Virus record (IMG/VR): IMGVR_UViG_3300034284_001564 | Span: 1-31,250 of that record | Reading direction: 5' to 3' (one strand) | Length of the DNA stretch: 31,250 nt | Source of the DNA: a virus | Part shown: positions 4,107-30,979 of the stretch, piece by piece | Position numbering within the stretch: position 1 is the first letter of the stretch | How the letters are laid out: every line of letters starts with the position of its first letter | Position numbers and translations under genes: made by a program | Notes under the pieces: model-generated | Seen by the model: only the letters and a program-made list of their open reading frames with translations | Databases searched by the model: none | What the model was told of the DNA's origin: nothing

Positions 4107-4349
4107 TTATCCAAGTTTTTTTTGCTCGTCATTAATAAAGCCTGTGCCGTCCTTTTCAGTTGCTTTGATAAAGTCAACTTCAACTTTTGCCGAGTTGACA
4201 ACAACCTGAGCCAAGTCAGCAATTGCAGCAGCTCTTTTTATTTCCTTTTCCAATGTGATTGGATTTTTCATTGTGGCGTCATCGTCCAAGCGCTCAAGAG
4301 CTGCAAAAACAATATTGCGCAGATCTTCAATTTTATTTTTTGTCCCCAT
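4107..4349 (-). CDS. Hypothetical helical protein, 80 residues
   Basis: Starts at ATG 4349 (MGTKNKIEDLRNIVFAALERL), overlapping the end of the HNH gene by 17 bases. It is strongly helical, with the run LEKEIKRAAAIADLAQVVVNSAKVEVDF and a glycine-containing C-terminal tail. Small proteins of this look are common in Bacteroidota phages next to HNH or replication genes, but I recognise no function. It is probably co-expressed with the HNH gene from the promoter at 4975-4982. Confidence 0.75.
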   Translation of the reverse strand: MGTKNKIEDLRNIVFAALERLDDDATMKNPITLEKEIKRAAAIADLAQVVVNSAKVEVDFIKATEKDGTGFINDEQKKLG

Positions 4350-4965
4350 GATTTTTTAATTTTTTATTTAATTTTGATACTATTTTAATTGTTGCAATAA
4401 TTTCAGCTGGAAAGCGTTGGATTGAATTTCTCAACATGTTTTGTTGGCGTGTCAAAAGCTCCAAATTGCTCACTTCCAAATTTGTTTTGTTGTTGTCTTT
4501 AAAACCAACGATCATGTTTTTTGGTATTGGTCCAAAGTTTTCAGTCCAAATGACTCTGTGTTTTAGCATATAACCTTTGGCCGTTTTAATTTCAAAATAC
4601 CCGTCTTTGCTTAGCCTTTCAGTCCCAATTTGCTTGTGATTAGCTGGCACGTTTCCTTTTTTAAACCTTGTTTTTGCGGTCCTTTCAATTGCTTCTGGAG
4701 CCATGTAGTCCTTTTGCTTTTTGCCTTTGTTTGGAGGAATTTGCCCAGGTTTAAATCTTGTTTTTTGCCCTAATACTGACAAAGGATTGAGACGGCCACT
4801 TGCCTCAGACTTCAAGAAAGCTTGAGATTTCCTCAAGCCAAGTTGATGTGCTTTCCTGTACACAATAACAGTGTCCAAGCCAAGTTCCTGAGCAATATAG
4901 ACAGTCTGCGTTTCAGCATATTTGTCTTTTATCAGTTGTATTTGTTGTGGCGTCCAATTTCTCAT
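4333..4965 (-). CDS. HNH endonuclease with N-terminal helix-turn-helix
   Basis: A 210-residue protein from ATG 4965 (MRNWTPQQIQLIKDKYAET). The first 50 residues resemble a Myb/HTH DNA-recognition module (YIAQELGLDTVIVYRKAHQLGLRKS). The C-terminal third holds an HNH_3-type motif: MLKHRVIWTENFGPIP, then IVGFKDNNKTNLEVSNLELLT, giving the His, Asn and distal positions of the metal-binding beta-beta-alpha nuclease fold. It may act as a free-standing homing endonuclease or assist packaging or host DNA cleavage. The promoter -7 box ends only 9 bases before the ATG, so the mRNA should have almost no leader. A TTG at 4977 lies inside that -7 box and is not used. Confidence 0.85.
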   Translation of the reverse strand: MRNWTPQQIQLIKDKYAETQTVYIAQELGLDTVIVYRKAHQLGLRKSQAFLKSEASGRLNPLSVLGQKTRFKPGQIPPNKGKKQKDYMAPEAIERTAKTRFKKGNVPANHKQIGTERLSKDGYFEIKTAKGYMLKHRVIWTENFGPIPKNMIVGFKDNNKTNLEVSNLELLTRQQNMLRNSIQRFPAEIIATIKIVSKLNKKLKNHGDKK

Positions 4966-4974
4966 GTCGTTTAG

Positions 4975-5013
4975 CAAAGATAAGATTGTTTTTAAGGTGT
5001 AAAACGATTTTAC
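4975..5013 (-). promoter_or_regulatory. Promoter with 15-bp palindromic operator upstream of the HNH gene
   Basis: Minus strand: palindrome GTAAAATCGTTTTAC (5013-4999), exactly 16 bases, then -7 box TATCTTTG (4982-4975). No TTG is present at the -33 distance; the palindrome occupies that place. The same palindrome-N16-box arrangement occurs at 8845-8883. Confidence 0.75.
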
Positions 5014-5048
5014 TAAAATAATTTATAAACCTTTGATTATTAGCTTGC

Positions 5049-5087
5049 CTAATTTTCAACGTCTTCAAAAGCACTACCGCTAAAACC
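5049..5087 (-). pseudogene. Possible remnant of a gene 3' end (SAFEDVEN and stop)
   Basis: Just past the stop of the 101-residue membrane gene, another frame reads GFSGSAFEDVEN and then TAG. The last residues resemble the C-terminus of the neighbouring exonuclease (AAFEDIEN) and of the ssDNA-binding protein (AAFEDVE). At DNA level 5051-5072 matches 5412-5433 at 19 of 22 positions. This suggests that a gene end was left behind when the 101-residue cassette entered. The match is short, so chance cannot be excluded. Confidence 0.35.
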
Positions 5088-5385
5088 CTAACGCCTTAAA
5101 CCAATTTGACATCCATTCCCATTTATACCCCCATGTTCCAGTAAACATAAATTTTATAGGTAAAGTGATTAATAATAGCAGTATGAATATTAACCCAAAC
5201 GGCAAAGACAATCTCACCCAAAATGGTTTAGGTTTACTTTCTTGGCTGACAATTCCTAATCCACTACCTCTTAAATTATCAACTATATCATCAGTTGAAG
5301 TTCCTTTAAGTTGCGGTAAATGCTTTTTCAATTCAATAGCAGTCCAGTAGTAATCTCGTTTTTTAATTTCCCAAAAGTTTGACAT
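5080..5385 (-). CDS. Single-pass membrane protein of unknown function
   Basis: A 101-residue protein starting at ATG 5385 (MSNFWEIKKRDYYWTAIELKKHL). The first 55 residues are soluble and helical. A strong hydrophobic segment follows at about residues 61-82 (LPFGLIFILLLLITLPIKFMF), then a Trp-rich tail (WGYKWEWMSNWFKALGF). It could be a membrane-anchored moron product, for example an exclusion or host-modifying protein, but this is inference. It is flanked by 22-bp imperfect direct repeats (5051-5072 and 5412-5433), consistent with insertion as a cassette. Confidence 0.75.
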   Translation of the reverse strand: MSNFWEIKKRDYYWTAIELKKHLPQLKGTSTDDIVDNLRGSGLGIVSQESKPKPFWVRLSLPFGLIFILLLLITLPIKFMFTGTWGYKWEWMSNWFKALGF

Positions 5386-5397
5386 ATATTTTATTTT

Positions 5398-6570
5398 TTA
5401 ATCGTTTTGTAAATTTTCAATATCTTCAAACGCAGCAACTGCTGCCTCAGTGCTTGACAGCTCAGCACGTTTGTCCCAAACAGGCACAAGCGTTGCAGCT
5501 CCAGCAGGCTTTGTGATAAAATTGCCTAATAGTTTTGACACCTCTGACTTGCCAAAGTTCTTTTCCAGCGCTGTTATGCTTAATAATTTTGGCGCTGTAA
5601 GGAATAAGTCTTTGCCATAGTTTTGCTGTGATAAGGTGTCAACTACAGCAGCCTCGTCAACTATTTTTCTGCTGCTGCGTCCAGCTACAAGTTTAAAGCC
5701 TGGCCATTTCTTTTCATTCTTTACGGCTTGCTCAAGAGCATAGGCAGTAATATTAGTCAGCCACACTTTAAAGTCAGGAGCCTTTTCTAAAATTTCAGCA
5801 ATTGCCTCGTCACTTAACTTGTTTGGATCTTCAAACGAATATTTTGCCAACGTCATATTGTGCTCAGCAAGTGCTTTGCATTGGTTTCGAGCTTTGCAAA
5901 ATCTGCAATGTGATCCTGGCTCATAATTGCCGTCACCTTGGAAAGCTTTGTTTGCCCTTGGCTTCACAAACTCTTCACCCCATTGCATAAGCCATTTGGC
6001 GTCAACTCCATAACTTGAGTAATTGTCAAGTCTTGGCTGGTAGATAGTCATGCGCACCTCGTCAATATGGTATAAAAGAGAAAACTTTTGCAAAGCCCCA
6101 AGCGCATACAACATCATTTGCTTGTTTTCATGCGCTTCAACCAAAACACCTTTGCCATACTTCAAGTCCACAATTTCCAACATATAGTCTGAAATAAGCA
6201 CAAAATCAACTGTGCCAAATCCTTCTGGCACGTAGTCCTCCAAACTAATCTTCTCTTCAATTTTTATTGTCGGCTCCTCATATTCGCCAATTTTGTCCAG
6301 GACAAAAGATACATAGTCCAAACAATGCGCATTGAGATCACTGTTATAAAGTGTATTGTTTTTGATTTTCTTGAGCTCGCTGTTGAAGGTGACGTTGTTT
6401 ATCAATTTTAAATTATTGCGCAAATACAGCTCACTTAAAGCATGTGCAAGTGTGCCCTCCTCAGCTGCTGCTGAGGTGTTATCCTCAAAATTCGACTCAA
6501 GACGAGCTGACGGAGTGCAAGCAAGCCAACGGCTTGCTCCACTCGGTGAAAGTAATGCGTGTCCACTCAT
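5398..6570 (-). CDS. DUF2800 / Cas4-RecB-like PD-(D/E)XK exonuclease
   Basis: A 390-residue protein from ATG 6570 (MSGHALLSPSGASRWLACTPSARLE), the characteristic start of DUF2800 phage nucleases. Visible motifs are EEGTLAHALSE near residue 37, the catalytic GTVDFVLI (about 118-125) and EIVDLKYGKG (about 131-140), and ENKQMMLYALGA (about 147-158). A cysteine group CRFCKARNQC (about 222-231) suggests an iron-sulfur or zinc site as in Cas4/AddB relatives. It likely resects DNA ends for recombination or replication. The 144-residue gene lies one base upstream, so the two form an operon from the promoter at 7031-7038. Confidence 0.88.
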   Translation of the reverse strand: MSGHALLSPSGASRWLACTPSARLESNFEDNTSAAAEEGTLAHALSELYLRNNLKLINNVTFNSELKKIKNNTLYNSDLNAHCLDYVSFVLDKIGEYEEPTIKIEEKISLEDYVPEGFGTVDFVLISDYMLEIVDLKYGKGVLVEAHENKQMMLYALGALQKFSLLYHIDEVRMTIYQPRLDNYSSYGVDAKWLMQWGEEFVKPRANKAFQGDGNYEPGSHCRFCKARNQCKALAEHNMTLAKYSFEDPNKLSDEAIAEILEKAPDFKVWLTNITAYALEQAVKNEKKWPGFKLVAGRSSRKIVDEAAVVDTLSQQNYGKDLFLTAPKLLSITALEKNFGKSEVSKLLGNFITKPAGAATLVPVWDKRAELSSTEAAVAAFEDIENLQND

Positions 6571-9113: not shown

Positions 9114-9512
9114 TTAAAAAATTTTATTTGAAATTATGTACAAAGTCTCAATTGCAATGGCATATTTTGCAATTGTCAAAAAAGCCTTTTGTCGTTTCAA
9201 TTGCTTGGCTTGTTGCTGCAATGCCAGGTCCTTTGTTTTGATGTCTTTTGCGAGCGTGTCTGCAAGCATTTTGTAGTCAGCAATTATGTTGCTTGCAGCA
9301 GTTAGCTGCGTGTCTTTGGCATTAATCAAAAGCCTTAGTGTCTTAACCTCCTCAAAACATTTTATTGACTTGCTAATATTCGCCTGGCTCATAGGCATTG
9401 GCTTCTGTTGTCCAAAGCTTGTATGCGCTGTCAAAACTAAGACTGTCAACAGCAATAAACTTGTTGCGCAGCTTAATTTTTTCTTTAAAAATAAACGTGT
9501 CCTGTTTGACAT
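9114..9512 (-). CDS. Spanin-like partner: signal peptide, coiled coil, C-terminal hydrophobic segment
   Basis: A 132-residue protein from ATG 9512 (MSNRTRLFLKKKLSCATSLL). A signal-peptide-like hydrophobic core (SLLLLTVLVLTAHTSFG) is followed by QQKP, suggesting signal peptidase I cleavage. I see no lipobox cysteine at that site. A long helical region (EEVKTLRLLINAKDTQ to LALQQQAKQLKRQKA) leads to a hydrophobic C-terminus (FLTIAKYAIAIETLYIISN). It overlaps the upstream 96-residue membrane gene by 140 bases in another frame, as Rz/Rz1 spanin genes do. A lysis role is inferred from context and topology. Confidence 0.65.
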   Translation of the reverse strand: MSNRTRLFLKKKLSCATSLLLLTVLVLTAHTSFGQQKPMPMSQANISKSIKCFEEVKTLRLLINAKDTQLTAASNIIADYKMLADTLAKDIKTKDLALQQQAKQLKRQKAFLTIAKYAIAIETLYIISNKIF

Positions 9513-9663
9513 ATTCAATTTTATTTTTAGTGATGTTCTTATAGATCTTATCAAACAAGTCAAGCCTCTCAGGTGCTGTTGTCATTTGCTTGCTGTTCAT
9601 ATAACTAAGGCCAGCTAAAAAGCCAAGGACCAAAGCAAGCAAAACAACAGCAATAATTTTCAT
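9373..9663 (-). CDS. Membrane-anchored spanin-like protein (i-spanin candidate)
   Basis: A 96-residue protein starting at ATG 9663, right after the endolysin gene. An N-terminal transmembrane anchor (IIAVVLLALVLGFLAGLSYM, residues 3-22) is followed by a charged helical periplasmic portion (LDLFDKIYKNITKNKIEYVKQ). The arrangement endolysin, then N-in membrane protein, then overlapping second gene is that of two-component spanins, which fuse inner and outer membranes at lysis of Gram-negative hosts. The family cannot be named from sequence similarity. Confidence 0.65.
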   Translation of the reverse strand: MKIIAVVLLALVLGFLAGLSYMNSKQMTTAPERLDLFDKIYKNITKNKIEYVKQDTFIFKEKIKLRNKFIAVDSLSFDSAYKLWTTEANAYEPGEY

Positions 9664-9667
9664 TTTT

Positions 9668-10168
9668 TTATGTTGAGAAAAAAAGTTTTGCCTCTTCCTT
9701 ACGCCTTTTGATAAGTCCAGCCAATGGCTTTGGATTGCCTGCGCCTGTTATGTAGTGAGACGTCCACCAAGCCTCAAGCGTTTCTTTTGAAGCTTTTGTG
9801 TTAATCAACTTTGTCAATGTATCAGAAAAGCCAATGTTATAAAAGTAAGTCACAAGTGCGTCAAATTGGTTTTGGTTTAAAGGAACCTTTATTTTCTGCA
9901 TTACAAGCTGCTCTCTTGGTCCCAGGTCTTCCATTAAAGCCTTTGTTGCCTCAGCTTCGTTTTTGATTGAAGCACGTGAGAAAGCCAAAGCTTTATTTGC
10001 AGATCCTTTTATGAAATTTCCTTTGTCATCACGCATGGCTCGTCCATAGCCTTCTGTCCAAATGCCTGCTGGGCACATTTTAGGCTGCAAACCAACTTGA
10101 GACAAATCACCGTCATGCAACGCCTCAGACAACTTAATCAATTCAATGCCCTTAGTCCCTGTTTTCAT
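9668..10168 (-). CDS. Endolysin, GH24 lysozyme (muramidase)
   Basis: A 166-residue phage lysozyme that cleaves the glycan strand of peptidoglycan. It starts at ATG 10168 (MKTGTKGIELIKLSEALHDGD). The catalytic Glu is E15 (KLSEALHDGD), and the following TEGYGRAMRDD matches the GH24 T-x-G-Y-G core with the catalytic Thr at 38. C32 takes the place of Asp in the E-D/C-T triad, as in some phage endolysins. LNQNQFDALVTYFYNIG is the second conserved block, and LAGLIKRRKEEAKLF the C-terminal RR signature. No signal peptide is seen, so release needs a holin, and two small membrane proteins precede it. Confidence 0.93.
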   Translation of the reverse strand: MKTGTKGIELIKLSEALHDGDLSQVGLQPKMCPAGIWTEGYGRAMRDDKGNFIKGSANKALAFSRASIKNEAEATKALMEDLGPREQLVMQKIKVPLNQNQFDALVTYFYNIGFSDTLTKLINTKASKETLEAWWTSHYITGAGNPKPLAGLIKRRKEEAKLFFST

Positions 10169-10346
10169 TCTTATTTGGTACGTTTAATTTTGTGAGATAA
10201 CCTCCAAGCGCTATCATGCCAGGCAATATCAATTTTGGAGCGTCTTTTGGCCATTCAAAAGTTGTAAAGTCAATTGTAGACCATGCTGTGCCAAGTGCTG
10301 TAAGCAAGCCAGCTATTGTTGCTATATGTGATTGCCAATTTTTCAT
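10152..10346 (-). CDS. Holin-like small membrane protein (64 residues)
   Basis: Starts at ATG 10346 in an ATGA overlap with the upstream 54-residue gene, and overlaps the endolysin start by 17 bases. It has a short polar N-terminus (MKNWQSH), hydrophobic segments at about 8-24 (IATIAGLLTALGTAWST) and 39-53 (LILPGMIALGGYLTK), and a charged end (NVPNKNENRD). Size, topology and position before the endolysin suggest a holin or holin partner that permeabilises the inner membrane. No specific family recognised. Confidence 0.7.
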   Translation of the reverse strand: MKNWQSHIATIAGLLTALGTAWSTIDFTTFEWPKDAPKLILPGMIALGGYLTKLNVPNKNENRD

Positions 10347-10507
10347 TTTTCTTTTGTGATTGCTTTAAAAATCCAATTGCCAAACCTGTAAAGCCAATAA
10401 ATAATTGTGCAAATTGAGGCAATTGACGCAAACAAAAAGTTGTGCTTTTCAAGTAAGGCCACAAAGCCAACAAGTGAAACAATGATGTCTAAAAATCTAA
10501 AGTGCAT
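10343..10507 (-). CDS. Second holin-like membrane protein (54 residues)
   Basis: A short gene starting at ATG 10507 (MHFRFLDIIVSLVGFVALLEK) and ending with a TGA inside the next ATG. Two hydrophobic segments, about 5-20 (FLDIIVSLVGFVALLE) and 24-41 (FLFASIASICTIIYWLYR), are joined by a short charged turn, with a basic tail (KAITKEK). A small two-segment membrane protein directly upstream of another and of the endolysin suggests a holin/antiholin or pinholin pair. A 70-residue reading in another frame over the same DNA is less protein-like. Confidence 0.65.
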   Translation of the reverse strand: MHFRFLDIIVSLVGFVALLEKHNFLFASIASICTIIYWLYRFGNWIFKAITKEK

Positions 10508-12302: not shown

Positions 12303-13626
12303 TTTCTCCTCCTTTTTTACCAAGGCCAACAAGGCCTCTAATTTCGTCCTCAGATAAACTTTCCAATACTTTGTTTGCCACAAGTGGACTTAAACTGTTC
12401 AAGCTATTTATAAGCAGCTCTTGACTTGACGATGTTTTGGTTTGTGCTGGAGGATAACCTCCCAAAGCTCTCAACTCGTCTGAGTTCAAAGTTGCCAAAA
12501 CTTCTGTAGGCAAGTATTCATAAATGTTGAGCTGCTTAATTGCAAAATCGTATCCAGGAAACAAATTGCTCAAAGCAGTTTGGATCATGTTTTGGCTAGA
12601 TCTCACACTTAGTGTAAAAACTTTTAGTGAATTTGCAATTGCTTGTGAATTGCCAAGCACTGTTGGACTCTCCAAACCAATCAACACAGGTGGCACAGTC
12701 AAATGTCTGCACACGGCATTGGCCACACGCAGTCTTGCCTTGTCAACTCCGTCCAGCATTTCAGCCAAAGGAAAAACAGTGACTGTTGGCATAGAGTCTT
12801 TGGTTTGTCCTTCCAACAAACAAATTGAGGCTCCGTTTTCATTGGTGAAAGCTTGCAAAGTTTGCGTCAACTCTTCTGACTCAGTCAATCCTGAGTCTTC
12901 GTCAATTGTCTGGTCATCTGTTTTGCCAGCCATTGAGATAATTGCAGAAGGCTTGAAGCCTTTTACAATGTTTCGCTTCTCAAGTCGTTGCAATGCTGCG
13001 TCACTTATTATGTCCTCAAGTCCAGAGTTGCTGTTTGGTATTGGGTAGATGTGCCCAAAGTCAAACTCCTTGGCGTTAAAACAATACATGATTGCACCAA
13101 GTTGCTTGCCGTGCGTTTGTATCTCCTCAGCCACAATAATGGCTTGCTCCATTGGTGTCAATGCTGGATCGTATTCGCGCAAAAACAAGTCATCTTTTTT
13201 CTGATAGTCCTTCTCACCCATTCTATAATTCCAGCGAATTTTGCCAAAATTATCTTTGCGCAGTTCTTTGATTCCAATTTTATACACTGAGCCAAATGTG
13301 CCGTCCATTCTGAACAAAATGCGCAAGGCAAACGCCTCAAAAACTGCGCATGATGAAGCTATTTCAGCAAGCAATTGGTCAGCTGTCTGGCTCTTATTTA
13401 CTTTTAAAGTTTTTACGTTTTCTGCAATGAAGCCTTCGCCCTGGATAAATGATGTTAAACGGCTTATGCAAGTTGTGGCTGTGCCACTATCGTTTAAAGC
13501 ACGCAGCAAGTCATTTGGCAAAGTGTCCTTTGGTCCATATACGTAGCGCTCTAAGCCTGATTTCTGTTGGCTTATCTCAGCTACTTGGTTTTTTATAAAC
13601 CTTGCTATTCTGTTAAACTTGCTCAT
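12286..13626 (-). CDS. Portal protein
   Basis: A 446-residue protein starting at ATG 13626 (MSKFNRIARFIKNQVAEISQ); a TTG 4 codons upstream is less likely. It shows the HK97-type portal pattern: N-terminal LNDSGTATTCISRLTSFIQGEGF, a clip/wing region, EFDFGHIYPIPNSNSGLED, and the diagnostic VCRHLTVPPVLIGLESPTVLGN (about 312-333) before the crown. The dodecameric portal would sit at one capsid vertex as the DNA channel and terminase dock. It overlaps the upstream 107-residue gene by 14 bases. Its place downstream of the capsid gene, not next to terminase, is unusual. Confidence 0.9.
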   Translation of the reverse strand: MSKFNRIARFIKNQVAEISQQKSGLERYVYGPKDTLPNDLLRALNDSGTATTCISRLTSFIQGEGFIAENVKTLKVNKSQTADQLLAEIASSCAVFEAFALRILFRMDGTFGSVYKIGIKELRKDNFGKIRWNYRMGEKDYQKKDDLFLREYDPALTPMEQAIIVAEEIQTHGKQLGAIMYCFNAKEFDFGHIYPIPNSNSGLEDIISDAALQRLEKRNIVKGFKPSAIISMAGKTDDQTIDEDSGLTESEELTQTLQAFTNENGASICLLEGQTKDSMPTVTVFPLAEMLDGVDKARLRVANAVCRHLTVPPVLIGLESPTVLGNSQAIANSLKVFTLSVRSSQNMIQTALSNLFPGYDFAIKQLNIYEYLPTEVLATLNSDELRALGGYPPAQTKTSSSQELLINSLNSLSPLVANKVLESLSEDEIRGLVGLGKKGGEIATTN

Positions 13627-24148: not shown

Positions 24149-24840
24149 TTTGTTTTCTCCCTTGTTTTAATTAGTCGTTTTTGATATTGTGCCTTTTCGT
24201 AGTCAATCAATAGTTGATTGTGCACCTCAAAAGCTGGCATTTGTTTCACCTGTTCACGTTTGGTTATGTCGGACTGCGTCAAAGCGTCCAACGTCAAATA
24301 AAAGCCTAAGTAGTCAAGTTGCCTAACACCAGCCAACAGCTCAGCTGTCTCAGGTTTATATTCGTTTAGCTTTTTGAAAGCTTCAAAAAAGTTGTTCAAC
24401 TGTTCAACATAGTGATTTATGATTGTCATGGCTTTTTGCAATGGCCAATCCAAAATATTTTCATTGGTGTAAATTTCAACAATTTTATCAATGACAAATA
24501 AAATGTCCTTGTCGCCATTGTTTTTGAGGTGCATTTTTGCAGCTTCAAAATTAAGCCAGGACTCGTCACCAATTATTTTCAAAAGGTCTGCGTCAACTAC
24601 GTGACATTGAATCTGACTTGGCTCAGCAATAAATGCAATATGAGGAATGATCATTGCCATTTGGCCGTCAGATATTTTGTGGACCAATTCAATTGGCATG
24701 TCTGCAAGCACTGAGACATTGAGCCTGTTTCTGTTGCTGCTTTCGTTGTTAATTAGCAAACGCCTATACTCACCAAAGCTAAGCAGCTCAAATGAGGTCT
24801 TCAATAAGTACGTTTTTTTGTCAATTGTGATTGTTGGCAT
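24145..24840 (-). CDS. Hypothetical late protein, 231 residues
   Basis: Starts at ATG 24840 (MPTITIDKKTYLLKTSFELL), following the large terminase by 20 bases. A short beta N-terminus is followed by an all-helical protein with conserved-looking FNEN-like helices (NHYVEQLNNFFEAFKKLNEY, LDYLGFYLTLDALTQSDITK) and a very basic C-terminal tail (QKRLIKTREKTK). The helical C-terminal half resembles tail assembly chaperones, which usually lie upstream of the tape measure. I see no clear slippery sequence for a frameshift product. The assignment is tentative. Confidence 0.6.
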   Translation of the reverse strand: MPTITIDKKTYLLKTSFELLSFGEYRRLLINNESSNRNRLNVSVLADMPIELVHKISDGQMAMIIPHIAFIAEPSQIQCHVVDADLLKIIGDESWLNFEAAKMHLKNNGDKDILFVIDKIVEIYTNENILDWPLQKAMTIINHYVEQLNNFFEAFKKLNEYKPETAELLAGVRQLDYLGFYLTLDALTQSDITKREQVKQMPAFEVHNQLLIDYEKAQYQKRLIKTREKTK

Positions 24841-24860
24841 ATTTCAGTATTGCAAATTTA

Positions 24861-26159
24861 TTAAATATTTCTTGCTTTTCTGCTAAATCTTTTATAAACG
24901 AGCTCAAAATAAAATCTCATCATGATTGAATCCCACTCGTCAGGTGATCGTCCAAGCTTCTCTTTGACATTGTCTTTGGACACAATTGCTGGCTTGCCGT
25001 CCTTGTCAATGTCCTTCATCTTTACTTGCTCCATTTCCTCAGACGTCATTGCTCTCACTTGCACATCTGTGCAAATTTCAGCTGTTTCTCTGTTCACTAT
25101 CTTTTCAGCCATGCGTATGCTGCATTGGCTTTTCAAGTTCTCATAGTTCTCGTCAAGTAGTGGCTTTGAGTTATTGATGAAACCTTTGCAGCCCAAAAAG
25201 TCAACAACGCCACCGCCCACTCCGTCCTCGTCAGCAACTGTGTTGTTTAGGCTTATGCCATGCTCAACTTGAATGGCTTTTGCCTTTGTCACAACATCTG
25301 TCAACGGTCCTTTTGTGATTTCGTATCTTTTGACGCACAGCCAGCCGTGCCAAACTCTGAAAATTGTTTTGTCCTTGCCTTTTCTGGCAACGTCAATTGT
25401 CAAATATTTCACGCCTTTGCCTGCAACATGTGAAGGACTAAAATAGTCCTGTATGCTGTCCGTGTCAATTAGCGCACTTGGATCATCGTCATATTCCCAA
25501 TTGCCAAATAGCAAGCGCTCTTTGCTGGTCTTGTCAAGTCTTGACAAACTGTTGACGTATGCCTCAGGCAAATGCTTGTTGTCCTTTGGCAGCGCTTGGA
25601 TAAATTTCCTGTAAGCTGGCAGCGTTTTGTCTCTGTCAGGTTTGTAAAATTCTGCATACGTCCAATTTTTAGCTGGATTGCATGTGCCTAACATCTTTGG
25701 CCTATTGTTTACAAGCTTGTAGCGTATTCGAGATTTGACGATTTGCCAAGCCTTGTAAGTGATTTGATTGCACTCGTCAATAAATGCGCCTGTGATTTCT
25801 AAGGAGCCAAGGCCGTCAAAGTTTGGATCAGAAGGATATAAAAACAAATCTTTTAAAAGGATCTCACTGCCATTTTTCCATTTGATAGTATTGGATTGAG
25901 CGTTGAATGTAAATTGATTTTGCAAGCCAAGTTTTGACGAAAGGTCAAAAAACGTGTTGAGCGTTGTTTCTTTTAGCGTTTTGAGTTTTGCTCGTCCCAA
26001 AAGCCACCTGGTCTCTTTGTGCACCAAGCAATTTTCAATAAGCCACAAGCAGCCAAACGCACTTTTGCCACCTCCAGCAGCGCCACCATACAAAAGCTCC
26101 TCAGTTTCCTGGTCTTTTAGATAGTACACCGCGTTTTCTTGTTTGGCTAGCAGCTTCAC
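24861..26159 (-). CDS. Terminase large subunit
   Basis: A 432-residue packaging motor. It begins with GTG 26159 overlapping the TGA of the small subunit (GTGA). ATPase motifs: Walker A GGAAGGGKS (25-33), Walker B GAFIDEC (about 124-130) with catalytic Glu, and a coupling-type GTCNP (about 158-162). The nuclease domain starts with LTIDVARKGKD (D256) and includes VADEDGVGGG (D310, D312), with a later Asp group near 415-425 (SPDEWDSIMM). It pumps DNA into the prohead through the portal and cuts concatemers. Confidence 0.95.
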   Translation of the reverse strand: MKLLAKQENAVYYLKDQETEELLYGGAAGGGKSAFGCLWLIENCLVHKETRWLLGRAKLKTLKETTLNTFFDLSSKLGLQNQFTFNAQSNTIKWKNGSEILLKDLFLYPSDPNFDGLGSLEITGAFIDECNQITYKAWQIVKSRIRYKLVNNRPKMLGTCNPAKNWTYAEFYKPDRDKTLPAYRKFIQALPKDNKHLPEAYVNSLSRLDKTSKERLLFGNWEYDDDPSALIDTDSIQDYFSPSHVAGKGVKYLTIDVARKGKDKTIFRVWHGWLCVKRYEITKGPLTDVVTKAKAIQVEHGISLNNTVADEDGVGGGVVDFLGCKGFINNSKPLLDENYENLKSQCSIRMAEKIVNRETAEICTDVQVRAMTSEEMEQVKMKDIDKDGKPAIVSKDNVKEKLGRSPDEWDSIMMRFYFELVYKRFSRKARNI

Positions 26160-28567: not shown

Positions 28568-28599
28568 TCAATTTAAGAGCTCTTGAAGTGTGTATGCCA
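28358..28599. repeat. Five copies of the 8-mer GTATGCCA (iteron-like)
   Basis: Exact plus-strand copies lie at 28463-28470, 28536-28543, 28558-28565 and 28592-28599, and an inverted copy (TGGCATAC) at 28358-28365. Near copies are GTATGACA at 28454 and TGGCATTT at 28505. The fourth plus copy lies inside the end of the VapE-type gene, encoding VAY. About 0.007 copies would be expected by chance in 242 bp on both strands at equal base frequencies. Likely binding sites for an initiator or regulator. Confidence 0.7.
28384..28411. repeat. AT-rich inverted repeat TATATAGT...ACTATATA
   Basis: TATATAGT (28384-28391) and ACTATATA (28404-28411) are perfect 8-bp arms around a 12-base AT-rich spacer. The tract is among the most AT-rich in the window and lies between the inverted and direct copies of the GTATGCCA repeat, so it could be an unwinding element or a binding site. 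Confidence 0.5.
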
Positions 28600-30979
28600 C
28601 TTGAATCTTCTCATAAGATCCTTTGTGCCTTGGATAACTTGTCCCAAATCTGACTTGCGCATTGGTTTTTTTCCAACCTTCAATCTTGTCCATTGAAGAC
28701 TGAATCAATTTATTTCCATACATATTCAACGGCTCTTTTGACATTAGCACAAGCTCCCAAATCTCATATTTGCAAATCTTGGTGCGCTCAACAAGATCCT
28801 CAAGCACTTCAATTTCTTTATAATTTGACATAAAATCAACTTTCTCAAACTTGGTTTTATTGTACCAATCTTGTGGCAATTTCATGTTTAGGAAAGCTTC
28901 AATTTGCTCAACAAGTGGATTTTGTTCAGTGTAGTTGTTTTGGACTTTTTTGGCCTCGGCAACTAACTCTTGGCTCAAATAAAGCTCTTCACCTTTTGAA
29001 AACAAATGGCAAGCCTCAGCCCAAATTTGGTCAATTGTTTGTTGGTTTATTGAATAGACAGACTCCTTTGGTTTTTTGATGAAAGTGGCGACAGGCCAAA
29101 ATCTTCTGTTTCCGTTTTGAGACTTCAAAAAGTCCGTTGTATTAGTTGACGCAAAGAAAACACATTGCCTCAGGCGTTGCTCTGTGGTCCTTCCATAAGG
29201 ACTCCTGTAATTGTCTTGACGTGCTGAAATAAAAGATTTGATCCTTTCAACTTCAACTTTTGCCATACCTGCAAGCTCACCAATTTCAATGATCCAAACA
29301 CCTTGGATTTGCTCATAGGCCTCTTTTGACTGTAGCATGTGTAAGTTGAATGTGTCAGAAAACCATTTGCCACCTAATTTGTCCCACAGCGCTGACTTGC
29401 CTTGTCCTTCCTCACCAACAAGCGTCAACACGTTGTCAAATTTTATACCTGGCTGCAAAACTCTGGCAGCGCATGCAACTAGAGATTTGCGTGTGACGTT
29501 GCGTGTGTATTTGTTGTCGTCAGCTCCCAAGTAGTCAATCAAAAGTGTGTCAAGCCTGTTGACTCCGTCCCATTTGAGACTCCTCAAATAAGTGGTGATA
29601 GGGTGAAACGAAAAGCGCTCAAGCACCACTAAAAGTCCTTTGTTTAGTTTAGTGCCAGAAGACAATTTGTAAACCTTCTCAATATAATTCTCAATGTTGG
29701 CCAAGTCATTGTCATTAAGCATTGGCTTTTCGTCAACATCTCGCCAAGGAGTGTTGCGTTTAAGGATTGCCTGCTGTTTAAATTCGTCAAAGGCAATGTT
29801 GTCTGCAAAGATTGGATCATGTTCTAAAATCAAAGCCACATTATTAATAGTCAGCAAATAATTTCCTTTTCTGTCAACGTCCATTTCTTTGAGCCAATCC
29901 AAGTCAATTTCTTTTGTGGCTGCGTCACCAATGTCGCCAAAGGCTTCCTGAGCTGCGTGCAACTTAGCTTCACCAAGTTGCTGCTTTACTAGCGTGTCAT
30001 TTGACACAAGACTTGACATTGCCAAAAAACTTGGCCTCTTATTAATTGGCGCCTCAGAGCCTTCGTCCATAAGACTGAATTTGTGCAAGCGCACCAGGTC
30101 AAAAGCATTGCACAACACGTTTGAAGCTGGATCAGTTGAATGGTGACTAAAACTAAATTTGTTGTCATATATCACAACTCCAGCGCCTGTTGAGCCTTCT
30201 GCGTAAGTGTAACGTCCGTCTATGTCACACGGCAAGTAAACCTCAGGCAAATATTTTTCAATTGCCTCACTAATAGTGTAGGCTCTGTTGAAAGCACCAA
30301 TAAGCCCTGGCTTTTCTGACGGCTCTCCTTGCTTCTTAGCTTCAAAAGTTAAAATTTTATTCTCACGTATGCCAATTGGCCACTCGGACACGTCTTGCCA
30401 ATTTCTGTAGGTGGCAAGTATTTCGTCAGGATTGAGCCACTCACCGTCTTGAGTTTTATAAATATACTCACCATTTGAGCTGGTGCTTGGCCAATACATA
30501 AGCCTGTGAGGCTGGTAGCCTGTGACGTCAAATTGGTCAATGCCAATGTCGCCAGCCAAGCGTCTCATAATTGCGCTGTATTCGTCACAAAGGACCTCAC
30601 GTGCCAAAGGGATAACAAGCCTATATCTAGGCTTCTCAGGTGTGTGTTTATGCGTTGAGTATATGGCAGCTGCGCAGTCATATTGCAAGCAAAATTTTTC
30701 CCAAAAATCAACGTCAGCCTCGTCAGCGTCAAAAGTCAATAATTGTCTTGAGGTGATTGAGCCAACAAGCCTACGGCCTCCAGCCAAGTGCCCACCGACA
30801 AAACCTCCAACGTCTTTGATCTCGTCTTGACGTTCTTTTTTAAAGCTCACATAGTCTTCAACAGTCTCAACGGTCCTGTGCGTTGTCTCTATTTTTTTAA
30901 GGAATTGCTCCCAGGTCACTTGTTTGTTTTGCCATTTTTTGTCTAGTCGTGATTTGCCAACTGCAATATTGAATCTCAT
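28568..30979 (-). CDS. Primase-helicase: AEP-like N-terminus plus VapE/D5-like ATPase
   Basis: An 803-residue protein from ATG 30979 (MRFNIAVGKSRLDKKWQNKQ). The N-terminal part resembles an archaeo-eukaryotic primase domain: TFDADEAD with D84/D86 as metal ligands, STHKHTPEKPRYRLVIPL (108-125) and a later HRLMYWPS. After a linker comes the virulence-associated E ATPase: LRSLKWDGVNRLDTLL, Walker A VGEEGQGKS (521-529), Walker B VWIIEIGEL (561-569), STNTTDFLKSQNGNRRFWPV with sensor and Arg finger. It likely primes and unwinds at the phage fork, beside DNA polymerase. Its 3' end carries one copy of the GTATGCCA repeat. Confidence 0.92.
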   Translation of the reverse strand: MRFNIAVGKSRLDKKWQNKQVTWEQFLKKIETTHRTVETVEDYVSFKKERQDEIKDVGGFVGGHLAGGRRLVGSITSRQLLTFDADEADVDFWEKFCLQYDCAAAIYSTHKHTPEKPRYRLVIPLAREVLCDEYSAIMRRLAGDIGIDQFDVTGYQPHRLMYWPSTSSNGEYIYKTQDGEWLNPDEILATYRNWQDVSEWPIGIRENKILTFEAKKQGEPSEKPGLIGAFNRAYTISEAIEKYLPEVYLPCDIDGRYTYAEGSTGAGVVIYDNKFSFSHHSTDPASNVLCNAFDLVRLHKFSLMDEGSEAPINKRPSFLAMSSLVSNDTLVKQQLGEAKLHAAQEAFGDIGDAATKEIDLDWLKEMDVDRKGNYLLTINNVALILEHDPIFADNIAFDEFKQQAILKRNTPWRDVDEKPMLNDNDLANIENYIEKVYKLSSGTKLNKGLLVVLERFSFHPITTYLRSLKWDGVNRLDTLLIDYLGADDNKYTRNVTRKSLVACAARVLQPGIKFDNVLTLVGEEGQGKSALWDKLGGKWFSDTFNLHMLQSKEAYEQIQGVWIIEIGELAGMAKVEVERIKSFISARQDNYRSPYGRTTEQRLRQCVFFASTNTTDFLKSQNGNRRFWPVATFIKKPKESVYSINQQTIDQIWAEACHLFSKGEELYLSQELVAEAKKVQNNYTEQNPLVEQIEAFLNMKLPQDWYNKTKFEKVDFMSNYKEIEVLEDLVERTKICKYEIWELVLMSKEPLNMYGNKLIQSSMDKIEGWKKTNAQVRFGTSYPRHKGSYEKIQVAYTLQELLN

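Follow-up and report, generated by a model that had tools for sequence, protein, structure and literature searches.

Directly behind the endolysin gene of a phage contig we identified two overlapping genes, A and B, that recur as a pair in related contigs and, with the same architecture, in two unrelated families. Judging from gene order and predicted protein features, we lean slightly toward the view that A/B is a two-component spanin-like module of Bacteroidota phages without a lipobox, whichever membrane holds the tail of B. The lipoprotein signal that defines spanins is missing, and thus we do not file the pair as a spanin. The window, by which we mean the whole stretch of 31,250 nt that was analyzed (IMG/VR record IMGVR_UViG_3300034284_001564, positions 1 to 31,250), carries the lysis cassette on its minus strand in the order endolysin, gene A, and gene B (Table 1). 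A and B are real genes that are kept as a pair in relatives, and their non-overlapping parts are under purifying selection.

Table 1. Features of the lysis cassette in the window
Feature	Position	Strand	Basis
Small membrane protein, 54 aa, hydrophobic, holin candidate	10343..10507	-	ORF; topology by eye
Small membrane protein P0004, 64 aa, two hydrophobic segments, holin candidate	10152..10346	-	ORF; topology by eye
Endolysin, phage lysozyme, 166 aa	9668..10168	-	PF00959 5e-20; PHROG_7 endolysin 6.5e-20
Gene A, i-spanin-like, 96 aa, ATG start	9373..9663	-	ORF; N-terminal membrane helix, periplasmic helices, no cysteine (predicted topology)
Gene B, o-spanin-like without lipobox, 132 aa, ATG start	9114..9512	-	Signal peptide, long helix, hydrophobic C-terminus (predicted)
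A/B overlap, 140 nt, B in the +1 frame of A	9373..9512	-	ORF coordinates, frame check
B signal peptide, predicted, residues 1-34, cleavage SFG / QQKP	9411..9512	-	Pattern; Q at +1
Cys52 codon of B, in invariant SIKCF motif (7/7 family rows)	9357..9359	-	Alignment
B C-terminal hydrophobic segment, residues 111-127, preceding 15 residues net +4	9132..9182	-	Hydrophobicity, charge count

The gene pair and its relatives

A sequence-only reading of this DNA had described two genes that overlap by 140 bases in different frames behind the endolysin, and both the coordinates and the frame were borne out. Gene B has an alternative, longer start (TTG at 9563), and the sister contig L002 shares the position of the ATG. 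Using a topology scan for overlapping pairs, the thresholds of which were loosened until all known window-family pairs passed, we recovered exactly one pair, A/B, from 62.5 kb of window strand, and six pairs, each a known A/B, from contig pieces of six relatives. The same pair scan returned no pairs from 7.6 Mb of first-order Markov-simulated sequence.

The window family consists of the window and nine other viral contigs (L002, L003, L004, L005, L006, L012, L013, L014, and L018), which together encode seven distinct B and seven A proteins. Both genes are present, overlapping, and downstream of the endolysin in all ten contigs, with overlaps of 140 nt in the window and L002, 113 nt in L003, L004, L005, L006, and L018, and 110 nt in L012, L013, and L014. 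The A, B, and endolysin of L002 are 89%–97% identical to those of the window, and dN/dS outside the overlap was 0.40 for B (from few changes) and 0.13 for A in this comparison. The corresponding values for B and A were 0.24 and 0.35 between L003 and L004, and 0.23 and 0.14 between L012 and L014. Within the overlap, the dN/dS of 3.0 for B between the window and L002 rests on 1 silent and 11 replacement changes, and it is mainly A that selection protects there. Several relatives carry an extra small membrane protein just before A (L002 2455-2853, L012 2205-2504, L013 507-899, and L018 1937-2245), which lies directly after the endolysin in L002, L012, and L013 and is absent from the window; the three that were scanned had no Pfam match.

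The terminase of the window shares 68.7% identity with its counterpart in Cellulophaga phage phi10:1 and 56.3% with that in Flavobacterium phage 11b, the nearest named phages, and the portal protein has a distant match in Cellulophaga phage phiST (23.4%, 1e-8). From these relatives, a Bacteroidota bacterium is the most probable host. Genome contigs searched with A and with B yielded no confirmed relative, and therefore we name no prophage or host. Two small membrane proteins in the cassette are holin candidates: the 54-aa ORF had no Pfam or PHROG match, family searches with P0004 gave nothing significant, and a look-alike of P0004 precedes the endolysin in L014. Elsewhere in the window (28568-30979) lies a VirE-like primase/helicase, the best matches of which are in Clostridioides (46.7%) and Listeria phages (45.5%), with Bacteroides phages close (43%).

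Recurrence of the architecture beside endolysins

We screened the best 80 of at least 544 confirmed lysozyme loci, some of which end at contig ends, for overlapping pairs of A/B topology. Lipobox-free pairs were present in five loci (L080, L082, L088, L096, and L102), u-spanin-like genes with a lipobox in five (L039, L067, L075, L083, and L085), and lipobox-bearing overlapped pairs in four (L056, L057, L064, and L101, with L056 and L057 identical). No locus held two of these types and 66/80 held none of the three. Candidate pairs in L054, L079, and L103 were dropped as small membrane proteins that are holin-like by eye, and a candidate in L076 was dropped as a stray ORF.

Two families extend these findings. 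The L080 family comprises 27 loci (61%–100% identity), all with an overlapping A (overlap 101–122 nt), and the L096 family comprises 36 loci that, at 92%–100% identity, form one close lineage. In the latter, A overlaps B by 77 nt in all 32 loci with A on the contig, and the remaining four start too near a contig end to show A. The pair scan recovered 32/36 and 20/27 of the expanded loci. Gene B lies in the +1 frame of A throughout (10/10 in the window family, 27/27 in the L080 family, and 32/32 in the L096 family). Across the 26 distinct pairs of the L080 family, median dN/dS outside the overlap was 0.18 for B and 0.48 for A, and inside the overlap it was 0.77 for B and 0.40 for A. Profile comparison among the three B and three A families gave no significant similarity (best probability 11.8%) and leaves homology between the families unsupported. 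One architecture in three families without detectable similarity thus points to convergence or very old divergence. The spanin-like placement and gene architecture first proposed for the window are supported, and both turn up again in the relatives as well as in the L080 and L096 families.

The pair is retained in all three families although the endolysins that accompany it differ in kind. In the window family, the enzyme is a lysozyme in the window, L002, L003, L004, L012, and L014, and a Peptidase_M15_3 in L018. Lysozyme is found in 24/27 L080-type loci and another enzyme in the other three (M15_4 by Pfam in L183 and L184; L188 by eye), while among the L096-type loci, the 27 with over 700 nt of upstream sequence carry a lysozyme (5), an M15_3-type peptidase (9; Pfam on L122), or neither (13). 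In the window, A starts immediately after the endolysin, and the same holds for the lysozyme-bearing L080-type loci, in which the lysozyme match ends from 2 nt before to 41 nt inside the A start (24/27 loci). Other small genes lie in a wider gap of approximately 300–500 nt in the L096 family and of 675 nt in L018.

Further observations concern the neighborhood of these enzymes. In six inspected L096-type loci without either enzyme, a 182-aa ORF lies upstream (L126 1120-1668; similar in L096 1698-2246) that had no Pfam match (L126 scanned) and contains a WSAGCQV motif, which is reminiscent of YkuD-type enzymes. This ORF may be an unrecognized endolysin. In L184, an HNH_3 homing-endonuclease-like ORF (1838-2350) follows the M15_4 endolysin, and its end residues are those of the C-terminus of the L183 endolysin, as if it had been inserted near the 3' end of the endolysin gene. 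In L202 (LR756502.1, a 642-kb 'uncultured phage' record), a TonB-dependent-receptor-like ORF (4294-6345) with, by eye, a Bacteroidota-like signal peptide lies downstream of a lysozyme with two ORFs between, and could be cargo or a product of chimeric assembly.

A search for homologues beside the endolysins of Bacteroidota phages had been suggested. All A/B examples come from uncultured contigs, and eight Bacteroidota isolates, scanned whole but for 329 nt of RAP44, yielded no pair (0/8). Searches by tblastn with five B and two A proteins also gave no significant match in phage isolates.

A/B could conceivably be envelope proteins that accompany lysis genes but serve another purpose, such as superinfection exclusion. 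A lysis role is not proven by any family match, and behind the endolysins closest to that of the window among the 80 loci (L034 and L035, 62% identity) there is no A/B. However, in three unrelated families A/B follow unlike endolysins at a distance of no more than approximately 700 nt, and we judge this explanation very unlikely. A lysis-timing device, either an antiholin or a holin partner, would suit a pair that adjoins holin candidates and an endolysin, and the T4 antiholin RI has a cleavable signal peptide, according to the accessible text of PMC8385771. This proposal is improbable, as overlapping genes in i-/o-spanin order and the +1 frame occur in three unrelated families, and the window, where no lipoprotein spanin was found, would then be left with no outer-membrane function.

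Predicted topology of A and B

Residues 3–19 of A are strongly hydrophobic and are followed by predicted helices. AlphaFold placed helices at residues 2–26, 33–73, and 77–90 with low confidence (mean pLDDT 68.8). The C-terminal motif of A is DSLSFDSAYKLW, and the seven family A proteins share DSL-x-x-DS-x-Y-x-LW. By prediction, A has the layout of an i-spanin, that is, a type II inner-membrane protein with an N-terminal transmembrane domain and a periplasmic domain. The A protein of the window contains no cysteine and is therefore not a lipoprotein.

The type I-like signal peptide ascribed to B is supported by its pattern, in which SFG is followed by QQ. This agrees with the Bacteroidetes Q-rule, in which Gln is exposed after signal peptidase I cleavage (PMC5837995, in the portion available), and the signal recurs in relatives and in two other families. 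By pattern, Gln occupies the predicted +1 position in 5/7 proteins of the window family (Asn in L003 and L004), in 27/27 L080-type proteins, and in 36/36 L096-type proteins. A Porphyromonas phage paper likewise mentions, in its available text, Q-rule-conforming phage genes whose function is unknown (PMC10367356).

The claim that B has no lipobox cysteine stood as well, as its only cysteines are at residues 15 and 52 and neither is in a lipobox. B thus departs from o-spanins, which are outer-membrane lipoproteins with a lipobox, and from unimolecular spanins, which have an N-terminal lipobox. Cys52 provides the window family with the periplasmic cysteine of two-component spanins. The seven distinct B proteins align with SIKCF and a Glu near the C-terminus invariant, and the B cysteine is replaced by Ser in 12/27 L080-type proteins.

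It is possible that one partner is a lipoprotein after all, either because B derives from a u-spanin whose lipobox was lost or is atypical, or because A is lipidated in some relatives, on a cysteine just past its helix, and B is the inner-membrane partner. The end-to-end layout of B is that of u-spanins, a lipobox-like LIAC lies inside the B signal of L004 (the same in L005 and L006), and cysteines occur in A at Cys25 in L003, L004, L012, and L014 and after the helix in 19/27 L080-type loci (YKSC 6, YNSC 5, YKDC 4, and YNDC 4; none in 8). However, LIAC is confined to 1/7 family rows and missing from the relative L003, and the lipobox pattern was found in 0/27 L080-type B and 0/27 L080-type A proteins. 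The cysteines of A, just past the helix, have no lipobox consensus and are missing in the window, L002, and L018. We hold a lipidated partner to be highly improbable.

We also scanned all frames for lipoproteins in the window and in G001, G002, G004, G005, G006 (less its last 878 nt), and G007, with G003 left out. The scan recovered the u-spanin-like genes of 11b, RAP44, and phi10:1; it is strict, such that LIAC of L004 was not flagged and like boxes would be missed. In the window it found no credible ORF, its sole flag being a 51-aa ORF on the strand opposite the portal gene, and in the sister contig it found nothing. The relatives yielded 13 mostly short ORFs, among which G006 24744-24956 and G007 12957-13262 are plausible by eye; others are a 59-aa ORF with a hydrophobic tail in G005 and a 42-aa antisense ORF in G007, approximately 650 nt from B. 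A separate u-spanin topology filter found 11b alone of the three isolate genes. These three genes, which combine a lipobox with a C-terminal helix, are annotated as hypothetical in phi10:1 (L030 758-1231), 11b (L031 28129-28593), and RAP44 (L115 1209-1787).

For B, AlphaFold predicted the signal helix and a single helix of 89 residues at 43–131 (mean pLDDT 80.7; block pLDDT 88–94 over residues 51–130). The long helix of the proposed coiled coil is therefore present as a prediction, whereas a coiled-coil character goes beyond this evidence. No fold or homology unrelated to envelope fusion turned up in Pfam, PHROGs, NCBIfam, the PDB profile search, or BFVD, nor did any match there support a spanin-like role, and one long helix by itself is no diagnostic feature. 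The window proteins reached at best 0.056 (B) and 0.069 (A) against PHROGs, and single family members gave PHROG 'Rz-like spanin' matches (B 0.064; A 0.051 and 0.095) that are too weak to count. NCBIfam returned nothing for A or B of the window and only sub-cut-off matches for L096-type A (best 0.0021), and the BFVD fold search returned two matches only (E 8.8). A Pfam IL12 match to B (0.0076, below cut-off) and PDB profile matches (0.015 and above) were rejected as likely compositional.

The hydrophobic C-terminus attributed to B is present and recurs in relatives and two unrelated families, but it is weak in the window, where its mean Kyte-Doolittle value is 1.58 and K and E lie inside it. 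On a crude insertion scale, which like the hydrophobicity scales is approximate and of comparative value only, the segment scored +2.0, a borderline value for a membrane helix, in the window and L002, and -0.67 to -2.52 in the other relatives and the other two families, as expected of membrane helices. In 10/10 B proteins, drawn from all three families, the net charge over the 15 residues preceding the segment is +2 to +5 (segment boundaries were placed by hand); in larger sets this charge was +4 or +5 (27/27 L080-type) and +5 (36/36 L096-type). The same 15 residues carry 0 to +3 in seven u-spanin-like proteins, a range that touches that of B, and the tail after the segment, its ends also set by hand, carries 0 or +1 in B versus +1 to +3 in the u-spanin-like proteins.

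A Sec-exported helix usually comes to rest in the inner membrane. Within a spanin-like role, B may be a type I inner-membrane protein with a cleaved signal and a C-terminal stop-transfer helix, with the free ends of A and B reaching the outer membrane or the wall. This is possible, if on the unlikely side. The membrane-helix scores outside the window and L002 favor it, as do the use of a C-terminal helix by Bacteroidota u-spanins and the single K or R after the segment in 8/10 B tails. Against it, the charges before and after the segment run counter to the positive-inside rule, the segment of the window is marginal, and the outer-membrane anchor would be lost. Two parallel inner-membrane anchors would give only approximately half the reach of A and B end to end, and nothing would then connect the pair to the outer membrane. 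In the accessible text of their survey, Kongari et al. (2018, PMC6139136) allow that a type I inner-membrane protein, which the survey criteria do not cover, could act as an i-spanin, and that other topologies may serve as spanins.

Because the positive charge before the segment opposes the positive-inside rule, we keep the outer membrane in consideration, and anchoring of B there by its C-terminus, as first proposed, is possible. A cationic-then-hydrophobic tail would fit periplasmic delivery and membrane binding there, which is an argument rather than proof, and we consider contact of the tail with the periplasmic face of the outer membrane and contact with the inner membrane about equally likely. 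As a general scheme, Bacteroidota phages may use a signal peptidase I-secreted, helical, non-lipoprotein partner that enters the outer membrane from the periplasm via a cationic-hydrophobic C-terminal helix, perhaps evolved more than once. We regard this scheme as rather unlikely, and no description of such an anchor for lysis proteins was found in the literature searched, outside which most subscription journals lay.

Proposed mechanism and comparison with known systems

Under the spanin-like reading that we favor, A/B would be the outer-membrane-disrupting part of the lysis cassette without a lipid anchor. A would sit in the inner membrane, anchored through its N-terminal helix, and its helical domain would project outward, in the role of an i-spanin. 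B would be exported by Sec, cleaved by signal peptidase I to leave an N-terminal Gln, and paired with A through its long periplasmic helix, probably as a disulfide-linked dimer via Cys52. The periplasmic domains of A and B, approximately 75 residues each and 150 together, could span much of the periplasm if placed end to end, and the published range for two-component spanins is 62–300 residues (PMC6139136, available portion). The cationic and hydrophobic C-terminus of B would serve as a second membrane contact. Once the endolysin has cut the wall, the complex would collapse and draw the membranes together. Complex formation, disulfide dimers, the membrane location of the B tail, fusion, and the lysis function are all inferred.

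The pair resembles overlapped spanins of the lambda Rz/Rz1 type in gene order, +1 overlap, place in the lysis cassette, the N-terminal helix of the first protein, and export of the second, as well as in a conserved cysteine (window family) and a combined periplasmic length of approximately 150 residues. In the sections available, Kongari et al. (PMC6139136) describe the second spanin gene of lambda, P2, and T7 as lying in the +1 frame, o-spanin genes more generally as embedded, overlapped, or separated in the +1 or -1 frame, and at least one periplasmic cysteine in either partner for 507/528 two-component spanins. A/B of the window and its relatives fall within this range of frames and overlaps. 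Unlike these spanins, B has a signal of the signal peptidase I type, no lipobox, and a hydrophobic end, and there is no significant sequence similarity.

Unimolecular spanins (T1 gp11 and the look-alikes Flavobacterium 11b gp49 and Riemerella RAP44 gp03) resemble B in having an export signal at the N-terminus, a domain in the periplasm, and a hydrophobic segment at the C-terminus. B differs in its lack of a lipobox, its overlapping partner, its predicted helical fold where T1 gp11 is mainly beta, and its more cationic pre-segment. Unimolecular spanins are annotated in the Cellulophaga phages Ingeline and Nekkels (PMC8776804, accessible text), and a 2025 survey that required a lipobox lists, in the portion available, only unimolecular spanins for Bacteroidetes phages (PMC12596118). 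The lipobox is required by both spanin surveys as far as their available texts extend (PMC6139136 and PMC12596118). A lipobox-free spanin pair in Bacteroidota phages was not described in the literature that we searched, which left most subscription journals outside.

No recognizable spanin was present in approximately 13% of 677 surveyed Gram-negative phages, whose way across the outer membrane is an open question, according to the accessible text of PMC6139136, Table 10 of which lists Bacteroides phage B124-14 and Croceibacter phages P2559S and P2559Y as spanin-less. In these phages of Bacteroidota hosts, B124-14 ORF016c, P2559S gp29, and P2559Y gp23 lie beside the endolysin and have, by eye, an N-terminal hydrophobic helix, as does A; unlike in the window, the pair scan found no overlapping B-type partner. 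The endolysin-adjacent proteins of P2559Y (L117 22998-23621) and B124-14 (L114 6765-7370) combine this helix with a possibly beta-rich C-terminus (by eye), and perhaps represent another lipid-free solution. Part of the spanin-less gap would be explained by a recurring lipobox-free pair, which would also show that lipobox filters can hide systems. A/B offer concrete, testable genes for how spanin-less Bacteroidota phages break the outer membrane.
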